Origin: Lytechinus variegatus
Taxonomy: Eukaryota > Echinodermata > Echinoidea > Temnopleuroida > Toxopneustidae
Assembly: GCF_018143015.1 (NCBI RefSeq)
Contig: NC_054742.1
Location: 59,404,853-59,468,852, forward strand
Reading direction: 5' to 3'
DNA length: 64,000 nt
In this document: piece after piece, positions 21,841-41,400 of the stretch
Numbering within the stretch: the first letter of the stretch is position 1
Layout of the letters: the number at the start of each line of letters is the position of its first letter
Position numbers and translations under genes: made by a program
The notes under the pieces: generated by a model
Database searches by the model: none
Told to the model about the DNA's origin: nothing
What the model saw: the letters and a program-made list of their open reading frames with translations, nothing else

Positions 21841-22734
21841 GCACCCTCCTCGATTACTCCTAAATTTTGCTTTTTGACAGGAGAACAAGTAAGAAATAGA
21901 TCTAATATATCTGTATCAAATACAATCAGCTTACCGTCTATCTGAAAAGTATGGCCAGTTCCCCCAAGTCTGCGCATTCCCACTTGTCTGCGCACACGCG
22001 TATCTGTGTGATTCTAGTGAAAGAAGATATGCAATGAACACAGACTTTACACATGCAATAGACAGGTATTCATTAAAAAATCTGACTCAAAATAGTGGAA
22101 AAATATTGAATTTAGGGCATTTCATGTGACGGCCTCAAAATGCAGCCTTTCTCATCAAAATCCCTGAATCGTGTGCAAAGTGAATGGGTGCGCAGACATG
22201 CATGTGGTACCATTTTTTTTTCAATCTGAAAATGACTGCCCGAGGTTTTTTCAAGAAAATCCTATATTTTTTTTTCATTTTTCAATGAGAAATTTGCTAC
22301 ACTTACTCATAATAATATAAGGAACATTATTAATTGAAAGATCTTGTGAAATAAGAAATTCATGTTAAATCTTAACTCAAATTGTTAGGTGCGCAGACTT
22401 GGGATCCACCATAATATGCTGGAAAGTTGTGAATTTTTATGACAAACAGATCGGGATCAGCCAGGTTCTTCGATCGCTGCAGCGCAGTTACAGCTGATTG
22501 GCAGGCACGTTCTTACGCTCGGCTCAGCTGTAGCTACACTGATGGCGATCAAGCGATTGAAGAAGAATCTGGCTGATCCTGATCTGTTTGTCATCAAAAT
22601 TCGCTATTTTCCAGCATGTTTTTCAGAAATGTGGTAGGGCCTATTAAGCTGATTGTATTTGATATAAATTCATCTCTATTATTTCTTCCTTTTTCCCCCA
22701 TCAAAAAGCAACATTTAGGAGTAATTGAAGAGGG
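21841..22734. repeat. Inverted pair of a roughly 90-bp sequence
   Basis: The left arm 21841-21930 and right arm 22648-22734 share GCTGATTGTATTTGATA, TCAAAAAGCAA and ATTTAGGAGTAAT in opposite orientation. Homology resumes on the far side of the LINE insertion (21797-21830 against about 23455-23485), showing that the LINE landed inside the right-hand copy. Confidence 0.75.
22414..22619. repeat. Foldback element, GACAAACAGATC family
   Basis: The left arm ATGCTGGAAAG..GACAAACAGATC..GGATCAGCCAGG pairs with the right arm CTGGCTGATCC..GATCTGTTTGTC..CCAGCAT. The arms are about 60 bp and the whole is 206 bp. It lies between the two arms of the neighbouring inverted pair. Confidence 0.8.
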
Positions 22735-23455
22735 TTGGTGTAAACTTCCAGGATAACCTTAAGTGGAATCACCATGTAGACAAAACAACTAAGTCTGCCA
22801 ACTCAGTCAGCAGCTTCCTGCAGAGAAATATCAGAGACTGTCCTCTCAAGACGAAAGTGTTGTGCTACAAAGCACTTGTCCTTCCAGTACTGGAGTATGC
22901 TGCTGTGGTGTGGGACCCATTTACCCAGAGGAACATCTCAAAACTGGAAATGGTACAACGCCGTTACGCCCGCTTTGCTTTAGGAGACTTTCGACGTACC
23001 AGCAGTGTATCAGATATGCTAAAGCAACTCCAGTGGGCTACTCTTCAGGAAAGAAGGGCACAACAGCGAGCTAGCATGGTCTACTGCATCATCAATAAGC
23101 TTATTGACATCCCGGATGACCACTTTATCCCATCAACTGGTCCATGTACACGTGGAAATCCTGATAAGTTCCAAATTCCATATGCCAGAACACAAGTATA
23201 TCAAAAGACATTCTTTCCTGATGCTATCAGAATATGGAACTCACTCCCAGCAAAGATAGTTCACAGCACCTCCCTTGCGTCTTTCAAGCAGGAGGTGCAG
23301 CAAAGGAGGCTTCGTTAAGACCTCTTCTGTTTTTAGCCGCACATAGTTTTGTAGAGATTTTTACTTGCACTATTCATCTGGGCACTTGACAAGCACAAGT
23401 ACGATAATATGCCAACGGCAGTCTGTACTTTACAGGAAGAAGAAGAAGGGTGCGC
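22725..23455 (+). mobile_element. 5'-truncated LINE (Jockey/CR1-type), reverse-transcriptase C-terminal part
   Basis: A 197-codon frame (22725-23318) reads NFQDNLKWNHHVDK, VLPVLEYAAVVWDP, LEMVQRRYARF, and RIWNSLPAKIV near its end. This is the usual thumb/C-terminal region of Jockey and CR1-superfamily LINE polymerases. A 3' UTR of about 120 bp follows, ending in a GGAAGAAGAAGAA tail. The catalytic core is absent. The frame is open to its natural end, so insertion was fairly recent. Flanking DNA matches an uninterrupted sequence at 21800-21930 in the opposite orientation. Confidence 0.85.
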
Positions 23456-35400: not shown

Positions 35401-38400
35401 TGATTATGAGTACTTCCTGTATGGTTCAAACCTTAGACCAATTGGCCCTTTTTAAACTCTTTACAAATTGAACCATGTTCTAAGTCTGTGCTGATATGGG
35501 AATACCAAAATGTCAAAACTTTGTTTATGACATATATTCTAATAATAATTTACTCAGGGTAGCCACTTCATCCATTATGAAATGTTCTCCCAGCGAGCCC
35601 TGCATTACACAACATGCTATTGTTGCCTTTTTCCATTCTAATATGCCGAGCGTCTGATAAGAAGGCAGGGGGTCCAATTTTTAAAGTCTTTGGTATGACT
35701 TGGTTGGGGATTGAATGATCGAGGATGAAATTGTTAAAAATTCTTGAACTGCATGAAGATGGGGTGTAGAGGCTGTCTCCTGATAAAATAATGGTAACAA
35801 ATATTTTTATGTTCTTCTTTGTGTGTTAACTACAGTCGAGTCACGTTTGATGATCTGGTGAAGATCACGCCGCCAACTGACGTCATCAGCAAACTTCAGG
35901 TGTCACAGCCCAAGGAGAAGGTGGAACGTACAGCCCTCCTTTCTGTATTCGAGTCCGTGTACAGATTCACTTTGGGTGCTATAGCAGGAGGTAGGATATG
36001 ATTAGGCCCTTTCTAGACCAACTTTACTTTCAAATTGTATATATTTTGAAAGAACTTTTAACTACCCATTTCCAGTTGTGCGTAAATCAACTCTAATATT
36101 GATCTAACTGATCAGGGGATGGGGGTTGAGGGTGTAGGCTAGGAGAGAAGAAAGGAGGTACATATAGTTAATAATACCTACACATAGTTAAACAAAATTA
36201 AATATTAAATTCTCAAACCATCAACATGAACATTCATTTTTAAACTGCGATACAAACCAAAGAGAGAAGAAAAAAAACAAAAGCAGAAGAGGGAGAGAAT
36301 ATAATGTTTAACATTTAATTTGTATACACATGTTTTCAAAATAATGATTTTACTATACCATTGTATTATTTATTAGATACACTCTTGATTGTATTTGTAT
36401 CACCTAACTTTACCGATACTTTATCACATTCTTTAATTTGTATTGACTCAACTTTTAATCTTCTTTTTTTGGTCATATTTGTTAACAATTTAAGATATTT
36501 CTTTTTAAATTTATCATTTCTTTCTTGCAATCATTTGTAGTTAAGCCCTAGCCTCAGGCTGAAAGAAATAATTTCAATAAATGACAATAATATGATTTAG
36601 AACGCACAAAATCCACTCTGCAGAGTACACCAGGGGAGTGTTTCATGAAAGGACTTGTCGGACGTTTTATCCGACAAGTCTCCTTTTATCCGACAGTTAC
36701 CGTAGGAACAGTGCCTCTCAGCCAATCAAAATCATGGAAAGATGTCAGATCTCACAACTTGTCGGATGAAAATATTGATGAAACGCTCCCCAGGTGGCAT
36801 GAAAGAAGAAGATAGAGAGAGAGAGAGAGAGAGAAAGGAATAAAGAAGTATGAATAAAGACTATCATTAAAACAAAATGTTGGTATTTTGTCTTTGTCCA
36901 CCAGCCACTGGAGCGACGGCAGTATATCCCATTGATTTGGTCAAGACTAGAATGCAGAACCAGAGGAGTGGTCAGATGGTCGGTGAACTCATGTACAAGA
37001 ACAGCTTTGATTGCTTCAAGAAGGTCATTAGGCATGAAGGCCTCTTTGGTCTCTACAGAGGTGAGGGTCAATAGTCACAGGTCAATAGGTCAGGGGTCTA
37101 GGGTTGCTGACTTTGATTGTTTAGGGAGAATTTCTTGAAAGGACTTGTTAGCGTGTTATCCAACAAGTCCTGTTTTATCCCACAGTTACCACAGTAACAG
37201 TGCTTCTCAGTAAATCAGAATCAAGGAATGTTGTCAGATCTGACACCCTGTCGGACAGAAATGTTGATGAAGTGCTCCCCTGATATCAGGAATTCATTGA
37301 TCATATTCATAACCAGTGGTGGACCGTGACCCGGAGGAGACAATGATTGGAGGGGCACTGTATTGTTTGTGAACGTTGCTGTGCCCCTCCAATGCTTTGT
37401 CTCCTCCGGGATTCGGTCCACCTCTGTTCATAACTTTCTCAAATCACAATACCATACAATTCTGTTGTTAGAGATATTACTTAGATTTGTATGGAAGATC
37501 ATAGCCTCTATTTGAATTGTAAATTTAACATTTACCAAGCACATACCACGCATTTTCCAAGTAACAGCTGTTAAAACCTTGTATTTTGAAATAAAAGAAA
37601 ATGAGGGCAGCATGGAAGAACATTTATTTTACAAATAGTGGCACATTCATATTATTTGAAAACAGTCTCCTATTTCCTGGGGAAAACCCCCTTCTAGGCA
37701 AAAGAAGATTGCCACTTGAGTCATAAATAAAAAAAATCCCCTTTTTTGAGCTGCCCTAAGATCTTTTTTTTTTTTGAAATGCAAGGTTTGAACAGCCCAG
37801 TGAGTAACATAATGCAATTTACGTATATTTGATACCATTGAGATTTTTAGCCATTATTTTTAGCCACTATAGCCATTATGCAGCGACCTGTATATTGTGT
37901 AACTTCTGAAGGTTTTTTTGGCGAAGAAGAATAGTGTAGTAGGATTCACGGTACACTATTATCTTTCTTGGGCAAGTGTTGGTCCTGAAAAGGACCACCC
38001 AATATCGACGCTTCGACAAGTGTGTTCTTCTAAAAAGAATTCTTCGGAAGACAACAAGAACACTCTTGTCAAAACGTCGAGATGGGGTGGTCCTTTTCAG
38101 GACCAACACTTGCCCAAGAAAGATACATGGTGTCCCGTGAAACCTACTACACTGCCCTGTATACTTAATCTAAATGTTGAAAGTCACTGCAATAATTGGC
38201 ATTTCCCTGGCCTTGGAACAGGATAATAAATGTGTAATGGGACAGGATAATAATCAACTGAGCTCAAAAGATTTGATAATACCACAGGTATTCTCAAGAG
38301 ATGTCTGGTGTCAGAAAATAAAGTTCTTGCACATAGGAGAGTAGGAGAGTTTCATGAAAAAAAAAGTAGGCAACTTTCACCGACTATTTTGCTCTGAGCC

Positions 38401-41400
38401 TATCAGATACAAGGGTTTGGTGACCTTTAAAAATTGTGAAAATTGCTTTATGTAAAATGAAATGCTCCCCATGCAAGCTGAAGATGGACTGCTCTCAATA
38501 AAAATGTGCATTTAATTAAACAAACCTCTCAACCATTTTGGAAGGAAGATTCTGGACTTAAACCATTCATAGCTCGTGCTAAGATATGATTGTCCTATTC
38601 TTTTCAATTATTTTTACTGTTCACTCCTCTGGGAAAAGGCAATATCCTTCTTTATTTTCGAGCAAAACCATCCCTATTTTTTTCAATCAAGTAGGTTAGG
38701 AGGTCTGATTAAGTGGTTTATAACAGTGGGTCACCATGAATTGAAAATAAATCATTGCTGCTTAATTTCAGGTCTTCCTCCCCAGCTGATAGGAGTAGCA
38801 CCAGAGAAAGCTATCAAGCTAACTATGAATGACTTTATGAGAGACAAAGTAAGGAGAAAGGATGGCACATATCCATTCTGGGGAGAAATGCTCGCAGGAG
38901 GATGCGTAAGTATTACCTTATCAGGGTTCCCACTGTCATGGAAAATCCTGGAAAAATTTGTGGTCATTGAAAGTCAGGGAATTTGGAAAATTTGTGAAAA
39001 GTCATGGAATTGCATTTACCTCTTGGCTATGGCAGCTTTCCAGTTTGTCATGTCTTGCAACTCTCGTACTCTGTGATCATACTCTGCTATTTTAATTGGT
39101 GTTCATGATTTCCATTTTTCCCAGTTTTGTGACATCCCTAATTTTACATAACTCCCGGGATGTCATGGTAAGTGATGGAAAGCAACAATTTAATCATGGA
39201 AAAGTCATGGAATTCTGTTTTCCAATTTCTGTGTGAACCCTGCTTATATAAAGCATTGTGCTAGTGTTGTGTATAAAAAGATGGAAGCTTCAACCATTAT
39301 ATTTTGATGGACTATTGTGTCACAGTGGGTTTTTAGTCATCACTCTTAGGCTTCCATATAAGGTCATTCCTTGTTCCATAATGTATTGTTTCTTTACTTC
39401 CATTTACACTTTGACCTTTGACATTTCGTTGTCTAGTGGGTCACAGTATTTCTCCACTATTCTTAAAAAAAGAAGATTTTAAAAAAAGTTTTCCAATGTG
39501 GGTAGACTTCAATGCGAGATCATTATCAGTTCCAGAATGTATTCTTTTTAACTGTCATCTACACTCACTTTTTACACTCTGACCTTTGATATTTGACCTT
39601 TTTTACTTTTGACAGGCTGGTGGGTCACAGGTTATGTTCACCAATCCCTTGGAGATTGTTAAGATTAGGCTTCAAGTAGCTGGCGAGATTCAGACAGGTC
39701 CCAGGGTATCGGCCATCACTGTTCTGAAAGACCTTGGTCTTTTGGGACTCTATAAGGTATGATAGTTTTACCATCAAACTTCAATGAGAATAATAATGAT
39801 GTTATTGACTTTATGTGACATCATAATCACCCTCTCTTAGAGAGAGTTGTCAGAGATGCGCAAATAGTGTAAGTGCAAAGGTCCTATAATGATTGTTTGA
39901 TTATCATTCAGATAGTAGTTTTATTTAAAGGAGTATATGTTTTGAGCACATTTTTTTGTTCAATTTGTTGATCTAAATAGCGCAGTATGTATGAGTCTAT
40001 TCATAGGCCTTATGTACTCAACTAAACTTTGTATACAATGCATATTGTTGGTTCGGCTGGAGCTGGGCCGCCATTACAGACACCACAGCGTTCCAGGAAT
40101 AAGTCCTGCCAGGTACCCATTTACTTCACCTACTTAAAAATGAAAGGGATAGAAGAACAAGTAAAATGAATTCGAGTGCCTCATGATAATAGGTATGAAT
40201 ACTTATGAATATGAATCTCTTTCTTTCCTGTCAGGGATCAAAAGCATGCTTCTTACGTGACATCCCATTCTCTGCGATCTACTTCCCATGTTATGCTCAT
40301 CTAAAAAAATACTTTGCTGACAAAGACGGTCATAACTCGCCAGGTTCACTGCTTGTTGCTGCTACAATTGCTGGTAAGCTACAAATACTTTTTGCATCCA
40401 AATTTTAAGTGCCATGTTTGTACTCTCTTCACTGAAAATTTATCATTTTATCATAATTAACCTGCCTTGTATGTTTTATGACTTTGTTTTAATCCTGTAA
40501 ATCTTTTGTGAATATTGTGATTTTTTATGATTTATCTTAATACATACTTTAAAATATGTTTTAAAAAATTTGAGTGCCATGAGTAAATAGGGCTCTTATG
40601 GTTCCCTTTCTTAAGGTAATAGGCCTACAAGTCACAATGATACTTAGGTATAATATAAATAGGCATTTATTGAGGAAAATATGAAAAAGAAGTCCACTAC
40701 ATTAGATCCTTGTATGCTGATCCATGATGTTTTGTTAAGCAAAAACAAAACATGGGACTACACTAAAAGTTCAGTACAGTCCCATATACATGTATGCCCT
40801 TTTGTGTTCTTGATATGCAACATGTCACCCGTAATCATTTGAATTTGATTTTTCAGGTGCCCCTGCTGCATACTCTGTGACGCCAGCCGACGTGATCAAG
40901 ACGAGACTGCAGGTGGTAGCCAGAGGAGGCCAGACCACCTATACAGGAGTGATAGATTGTGCAAGGAAGATCTACAGTCAAGAGGGTTTCAGGGCATTCT
41001 GGAAAGGAGGACCAGGTAAGAAGCAGTGCGGTGTAGCGGTCGTGACTCGTATCTTGTAATCCCATCGAGGTCTATCGTCCTGTTAAGATGTCAATCCACA
41101 GTTTGCCCCTCCCCGCCCAGATGATGAACGAGTATCCGGTAGGATGCGAATGCTGGAGTATGTAGTCTACCTTGCAATTGGGTTTGGTAACCTTTTTGGA
41201 ATGCTCCCCAGGGAGAGGAAAAAGTCAGGATATGATGACCCGGGTGATCTACGAATTCTCTCGAGATGTTGTTGTGATGTATTGAGGGTTATACAAAAGT
41301 GGAGTATTATTATTACAAATGTTTCACAAAATAATAAGCTCTGTAAGGTCCCTTGACAAAAGTCACAGGGCTTTCCCAGTTCCCTCCCAATATTGGTTTG

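Follow-up and report, generated by a model that had tools for sequence, protein, structure and literature searches.

Penelope-like elements (PLEs) are retroelements whose RNA 3'-end formation is at issue here. The PLE of Anolis possesses an optional 'tail', bounded by two internal sites at which reverse transcription starts, and its protein cuts and extends both strands in vitro (accessible text of PMC11167929). The hammerhead of PLEs is described as a minimal motif without helix III (accessible text of PMC6155905). In the histone system, U7 processing cuts the RNA 4–5 nt after the stem (accessible text of PMC7026596).

In the window, by which we mean the whole 64-kb stretch of Lytechinus variegatus DNA analysed here, the initial annotation had marked an inverted repeat with a histone-type stem-loop and a purine element in each arm. 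We confirmed both parts: read outward, each arm contains GGTCCTTTTCAGGACC, a 10-base spacer and CAAGAAAGA, the spacing being the same on both strands. A search with GGYCCTTTTCAGGRCC, allowing up to 2 mismatches, recovered 2 matches in the 64 kb, both in the foldback, against 0.03 expected; the two-part histone-type signal of the arms exceeds chance. Taken alone, each stem has a folding energy of -10.2 kcal/mol, a value equalled or beaten by 12 and 13 of 200 shuffles for the two stems, and stem folding energy by itself is therefore no evidence. An Rfam scan of the window yielded no family at its gathering score. The Histone3 model gave 17.2 and 16.2 bits on the two arms (gathering score 34), which is histone-like and sub-threshold, and the top score at the foldback, that of MIR6234 on the long hairpin, was likewise sub-threshold (41.7 bits, gathering score 90). 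The arms do lie within the originally assigned 37931–38153, but the left boundary had to be moved, since the element runs on through a tail and spans 37901–38153. The inverted arms match at 93% over 37960–38029/38056–38125 and at 89% over 37933–37959/38127–38153, and 6 and 2 extra bases adjoin the element inside its target duplication. The parts are as follows:

37887..37894, no strand: left target-site duplication CCTGTATA (from sequence)
37901..37932, minus strand: PLE 'tail', the optional extension of about 32 bp, on the left side only (tail as described in the accessible text of PMC11167929); the ORF start codon that relatives hold here is degraded
37933..38029, minus strand: left arm, an antisense copy of the PLE 5' leader (inverted-repeat and reference alignment)
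37962..37970, minus strand: CAAGAAAGA, like the histone downstream element (from sequence)
37981..37996, minus strand: histone-type stem-loop GGTCCTTTTCAGGACC (sequence, pattern count, folding)
38030..38055, no strand: degenerate centre where the 5' ends of the two leaders meet; the right-arm equivalent of the start site lies near 38039
38047..38081, plus strand: decayed hammerhead-like motif (GAAGACAACAAGAACACTCTTGTCAAAACGTCGAG), recognized by eye, with a better kept form in locus L087
38056..38153, plus strand: right arm, a sense copy of the PLE 5' leader that stops at the tail start
38089..38104, plus strand: histone-type stem-loop GGTCCTTTTCAGGACC (sequence, pattern count, folding)
38115..38123, plus strand: CAAGAAAGA, like the histone downstream element (from sequence)
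38156..38163, no strand: right target-site duplication CCTGTATA (from sequence)

Closely upstream of the foldback, 37309–37431 form a second nested hairpin, built from inverted pairs of 35 and 22 nt. The ORF at 38576–39076 has a weak Mito_carr match (E 0.042, below the cut-off) and appears Aralar/citrin-like by eye; it is perhaps an exon, in which case the foldback insertion may sit in an intron. A further ORF at 22725–23318 (197 aa) resembles by eye the C-terminal portion of LINE reverse transcriptases, and had no Pfam match.

The genome searched comprises 869,567,369 bases in 33 contigs. With the 223-nt foldback as the query we obtained 80 match rows (best 40 of 1198 candidates scored), and foldbacks among them match the query on both strands. 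The majority sequence of 36 foldback arms carries the stem-loop and CAAGAAAGA, so that the signals do belong to the family consensus. Solo copies (loci L035, L036 and L043–L045, the last three looking like duplicates of one insertion) carry longer shared sequence, which shows that each foldback arm belongs to a larger unit. In this unit TATATAAG is followed by CTCATTCTCC or a close form, and L035 and L036 have a CCAAT box too. Next come a hairpin, CGACAAG...CTTGTCG, set in a hammerhead-like frame (CTGAGGA...GAAACGTC), the stem-loop and CAAGAAAGA, and after these ...CTACTACACT and, in most of these five copies, ...ATGGAAACCTTCAGAAGTT.

Two other sets of sequences came up in the searches. A different dispersed repeat (L081:6986–8804 with its relatives L082, L083, L039, L042 and L057, 93–95% alike) carries GGCTCTTTTCAGAGCC and CAAGAAAGA. 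In L039, L042 and L057 it passes the Rfam Histone3 model at 40.1 bits downstream of an ORF ending in ...SAFTWGEGDDSDFE before the stop, and it looks as if this repeat picked up the last exon of a gene with a real histone-type 3' end. An IMG/VR scan gave 31 stretches (L094–L124), in none of which the six-pair stem was seen by eye; a 35-nt sequence without a stem, CCTTTTCAGG...CAAGAAAGA, recurs in 23 of these 31 contigs and is taken as coding DNA unrelated to the PLE signal.

The promoter part of the unit, used as a genome query (best 40 of 156 candidates scored), produced two pairs of matches that are close and inverted (L087 and L088), and in these loci inverted repeats (603 and 608 nt) enclose reverse transcriptase (RT) coding sequence. 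The open 819-aa ORF of L088 matches RVT_1 (E 4.6e-12), contains a YVDD motif (RYVDDTF) and displays a GIY...YIG-type pattern, GVY...YIG..R, at residue 712. The GIY-YIG domain itself had no match in Pfam, NCBIfam or PHROG, the fold prediction for this part reached a pLDDT of 32, a PDB search with the 819-aa ORF returned weak matches only, mostly to RTs, and a search of the phage collection gave no match. In relatives, the full unit has a CCAAT box and TATATAAG ahead of the inferred start site, after which come the hammerhead-like motif, the stem-loop, CAAGAAAGA and the optional tail of about 32 bp, which holds the in-frame ATG of the RT and GIY-YIG-like ORF (METFRSY..., residue 13 of the listed L088 ORF). 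Sequence and coordinates place the leader both upstream and downstream of the ORF in relatives, i.e. as a pLTR. At C3:16146865-16149056, a member of lineage A, as we term the lineage of this ORF, the coordinates give the direct order promoter, stem-loop, ORF part, promoter and tail word; its ORF is damaged, covering aa 13–583 with 8 stops. The hammerhead-like CTGANGA...GAAACGTC was recognized by eye in three lineages, and Rfam gave no hammerhead match in L036, L089 or L091. The anatomy of the foldback in the window identifies it as a dead insertion in which two 5' leaders from a Penelope-like retroelement are joined head to head.

The boundaries of the copies are informative as to how such insertions could arise. 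Of the two arms in each of the 18 non-redundant foldbacks, one extends to reference positions 275–279 (the tail) and the other stops at 236–255 (the tail start), a pattern that fits the 'tail' between the two internal reverse-transcription start sites of the Anolis PLE. A target duplication of 8 nt or longer, in one case with a mismatch, was recognized at 16 of 28 loci, and 6 of the 28 had no score; these loci are the 18 foldbacks and 10 hand-chosen others, L043 and L045 among them being duplicates. When flanks were swapped between loci as a control, 1 of 28 gave any score. Leaders copied from both strands of one target would yield such foldbacks, and the window element fits a by-product of Penelope-like retroposition, with two head-to-head leaders, one of them tailed, between target duplications. 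The initial annotation had considered a mobile foldback: a mobile family of hundreds of copies is supported, but a separate class of foldback is not. The longer arm ends at reference 128–135 in 16 of the 18 foldbacks, and position 133 is 31 nt downstream of the first TATATAAG base (TATA); from these positions we infer that the arm ends mark where the copied RNA began, i.e. the start site. For a 72-nt RNA that begins at this putative start and runs slightly beyond the stem, the folding energy is -25.8 kcal/mol (z -2.97), a value matched by 0 of 200 shuffles. Given that the retroposed copies extend past CAAGAAAGA into the tail, the copied RNA was uncut at the upstream signal.

The histone genes of this genome stand in tandem, and the similarity of the foldback to them is limited to the stem, the loop and the purine element; capture of a histone 3' end, which the initial annotation had raised, would be one possible origin of these. 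A plain histone gene remnant was rejected, as no GGTCCT occurs among 32 stems from 17 of 20 histone loci. The inferred start, CTCATTC, resembles the sea urchin histone cap box; a histone-like cap site was nevertheless discarded as evidence, because TATA followed by YCATTC within 15–35 nt is absent from 20 histone loci. CCAAT and TATA boxes are also present in the four H3 promoters examined, and these are too common to carry weight as a histone link.

Beyond the window family, the 819-aa query detected further ORFs, many of them stop-free, that are 53–54% identical along most of their length; other ORFs matched at 37–48%, and there were partial matches at 50–60% and 78% (best 55 of 998 candidates). 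One of these loci, L089, is a pLTR between two tandem ORFs of lineage B (53% protein identity to lineage A), and has the order hammerhead-like motif, AGTCCTTTTCAGGACT, 5 nt and CAAGAAAGA. Elsewhere in lineage B, the ORF at C1:38155299-38157698 lies between two stem-loops, at 38155160 and 38158276. The highest-scoring ungapped blocks between L089 and the lineage A pLTR were the tail word (29), the stem core (28) and promoter words (26 and 25), followed by hammerhead parts (24 and 19), an out-of-order CCAAT word (19) and CAAGAAAGA (18). The best score among 60 single-base shuffles was 24, which is surpassed by the tail word, the stem core and the promoter words; the other blocks count by their order only. 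The L089 stem core is collinear with the hammerhead, CAAGAAAGA and tail blocks of lineage A.

Pattern counts extend this comparison to the genome. The form GGYYCTTTTCAGRRCC (a GGYY stem) with CAAGAAAGA within 4–16 nt has 416 matches and its reversed pattern 0; among the 100 of these matches listed, 89 have a GGTCC stem and 11 a GGCTC stem. A second form, in which the first stem base is not G, has 1049 matches with CAAGAAAGA versus 1 for the reversed pattern, and the 15 shown comprise 13 of the type AGTCC...GGACT, one of lineage A with a changed base and one starting CCTCC. The looser TTTTCAG...CAAGAAAGA gave 1822 matches versus 22 for its reversal. Thus, on one lineage B locus and the genome-wide counts, two PLE lineages keep the stem-loop and purine element while most of the other pLTR sequence diverged. 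Compensatory stem change, which the initial annotation had named as support, is seen between the PLE lineages and histone genes. In an alignment of 10 hand-chosen stem sequences that cover histone genes, both PLE lineages and the window, all 60 of 60 cells are paired and 3 of 6 pairs are changed on both sides; 0 of 500 shuffles reached the covariation score, and 18 of 500 reached the count of pairs changed on both sides.

Both signals are absent from the pLTR of L091, L092 and L093, whose ORFs are at 38–40% identity, and PLEs therefore do not need them. L092 and L093 are alike, so that these three loci amount to two lineages, and the L091 pLTR still has TATA and CTCATT as well as the hammerhead-like motif. 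The stretch examined at L090 (ORF match 48%) had no pLTR and counts neither way. Among the lineages covered, which exclude those at 41–43% and 37%, two thus have the signal, and it is absent from three loci that represent two lineages further removed. The pLTR promoters of L092 (C1:22447300-22447810) and L093 have three ATTTGCAT octamers each, a CCAAT box and TATAAA.

We propose, with an even chance of being correct, that the repeated leader in the ancestor of the two PLE lineages gained a 3'-end signal of the histone type, and that U7/SLBP processing ends the RNA. The downstream pLTR would act as a histone-type terminator: SLBP would bind the PLE stem-loop, the U7 snRNP would pair with CAAGAAAGA, and the RNA would be cut 4–5 nt past the stem, giving a capped, non-polyadenylated, S-phase-coupled PLE RNA. 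As the unit is repeated around the ORF, an RNA that starts in the upstream pLTR and ends at the stem-loop of the downstream one would have a terminal repeat of about 71 nt, which would bound it at both ends like R in the RNA of LTR elements. LTR elements skip promoter-proximal poly(A) sites, and by analogy the upstream copy of the signal would have to be skipped; the copies do indicate that insertion used RNAs that retained CAAGAAAGA and the tail. A search with RF00066 found no U7 match in this genome, and none in any control genome either. The broader statement, that a retrotransposon clade ends its RNA by the host histone machinery, non-polyadenylated and tied to S phase, and that the histone-type signals of this genome are by copy number mostly of retroelement origin, appears to us to fall just short of an even chance.

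A different account, which we consider unlikely, is that the stem-loop and purine run arose convergently and are kept for a PLE-specific reason, be it protein binding, an RNA fold by the hammerhead or DNA target recognition. The signals do follow the hammerhead-like motif and precede the tail, close to the pLTR-ORF junction at which reverse transcription starts (accessible text of PMC11167929), and Rfam makes no Histone3 call, lineage A scoring 16–17 bits versus 34 and the lineage B locus L089 having no match at E<=5. Nevertheless, a UUUC loop, a 6-bp stem and a G-C second pair in 10 of 10 sequences are much to arise independently, as is the exact 9-nt CAAGAAAGA shared with most histone stem types seen in the genome, and the three signal-less pLTR loci manage without them. 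Alternatively, the signal might work in the 5' leader, where U7/SLBP cutting or SLBP binding would attenuate or time PLE expression and yield a capped RNA of about 71 nt. The stem-loop and CAAGAAAGA lie between the inferred start and the ORF start in lineage A and just upstream of the ORF in lineage B, as such a role would have it; yet cutting there would strip the cap from the coding RNA and selection for the site is harder to see. We consider this role distinctly improbable.

Comparison of dead copies bears on whether the 3' end of a histone gene was captured once by a PLE ancestor and has since been a functionless passenger. In 36 arms from 18 foldbacks, non-CpG substitutions number 12/576 in the stem-loop, 9/324 in CAAGAAAGA, 26/1028 in the leader, 22/360 in the spacer and 34/991 downstream. 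Against the 82/2379 of leader, spacer and downstream sequence combined, neither the stem-loop (p=0.11) nor the stem-loop with CAAGAAAGA (21/900, p=0.12) differs significantly, and exact 16-mers of the stem (539 genome-wide) are about as numerous as those of the word after the purine element (522). Given this p=0.11 and these near-equal counts, stem and non-stem sequence of dead copies decays at a similar pace, as expected of a passenger. The refuting condition set by the initial annotation, free variation among copies or a consensus that lacks the signals, is thereby only half decided: the family keeps them, but single copies are without significant extra constraint. A passenger is nonetheless hard to reconcile with the paired stem changes and with a signal that outlived divergence of the lineages to 53% protein identity, unlike most of the neighbouring pLTR sequence, and we regard it as a decidedly poor prospect. 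Finally, a DNA-transposon foldback or MITE holding the signals by chance has negligible probability, for despite the long, nearly complementary inverted repeat it is contradicted by target duplications that vary in length (8–14 bp), by 5'-truncated and solo copies, and by ends identical to the pLTR termini of RT elements.

If histone-type termination of the downstream pLTR holds, it would explain how a PLE could do without poly(A), would couple PLE RNA to S phase and the early cleavage divisions, and would make PLEs a user of U7 and SLBP outside the histone genes. Histone 3'-end scans in such genomes would pick up many retroelements. The claim is directly testable in sea urchin embryos. A literature search for PLEs or transposable elements with histone-type 3' signals, in whose scope subscription papers mostly did not fall, found no report.

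Three described systems come close to the urchin element. Retrozymes, the hammerhead-bearing retroelements, likewise form small non-autonomous copies with a hammerhead-like motif, but histone signals are not mentioned in the accessible text of PMC7229834, and the urchin motif is without an Rfam match. The Penelope/Poseidon-type PLE PAc of Anolis has the same RT and GIY-YIG-like ORF, pLTRs, a hammerhead-like motif near the start codon and an optional tail of 30–40 bp, and its two-strand cutting and extension would suit the head-to-head copies found here. The urchin pLTR adds to this the histone-type stem-loop and purine element, and the accessible text of PMC11167929 has 0 occurrences of 'histone'. 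Replication-dependent histone mRNA 3' ends (U7 snRNP/SLBP; accessible texts of PMC7026596 and PMC5011920) share the 6-bp stem and UUUC loop, a spacer of about 10 nt as in lineage A, and CAAGAAAGA as found in the histone genes of this genome. The PLE signal differs from these in its stem, which is GGTCCT or AGTCCT versus the histone GGCTCT/GGCCCT, in the lack of a histone ORF and of the A-rich 5' flank, in its other flanks, in the 5-nt spacer of lineage B, and in its occurrence both before and after the ORF.
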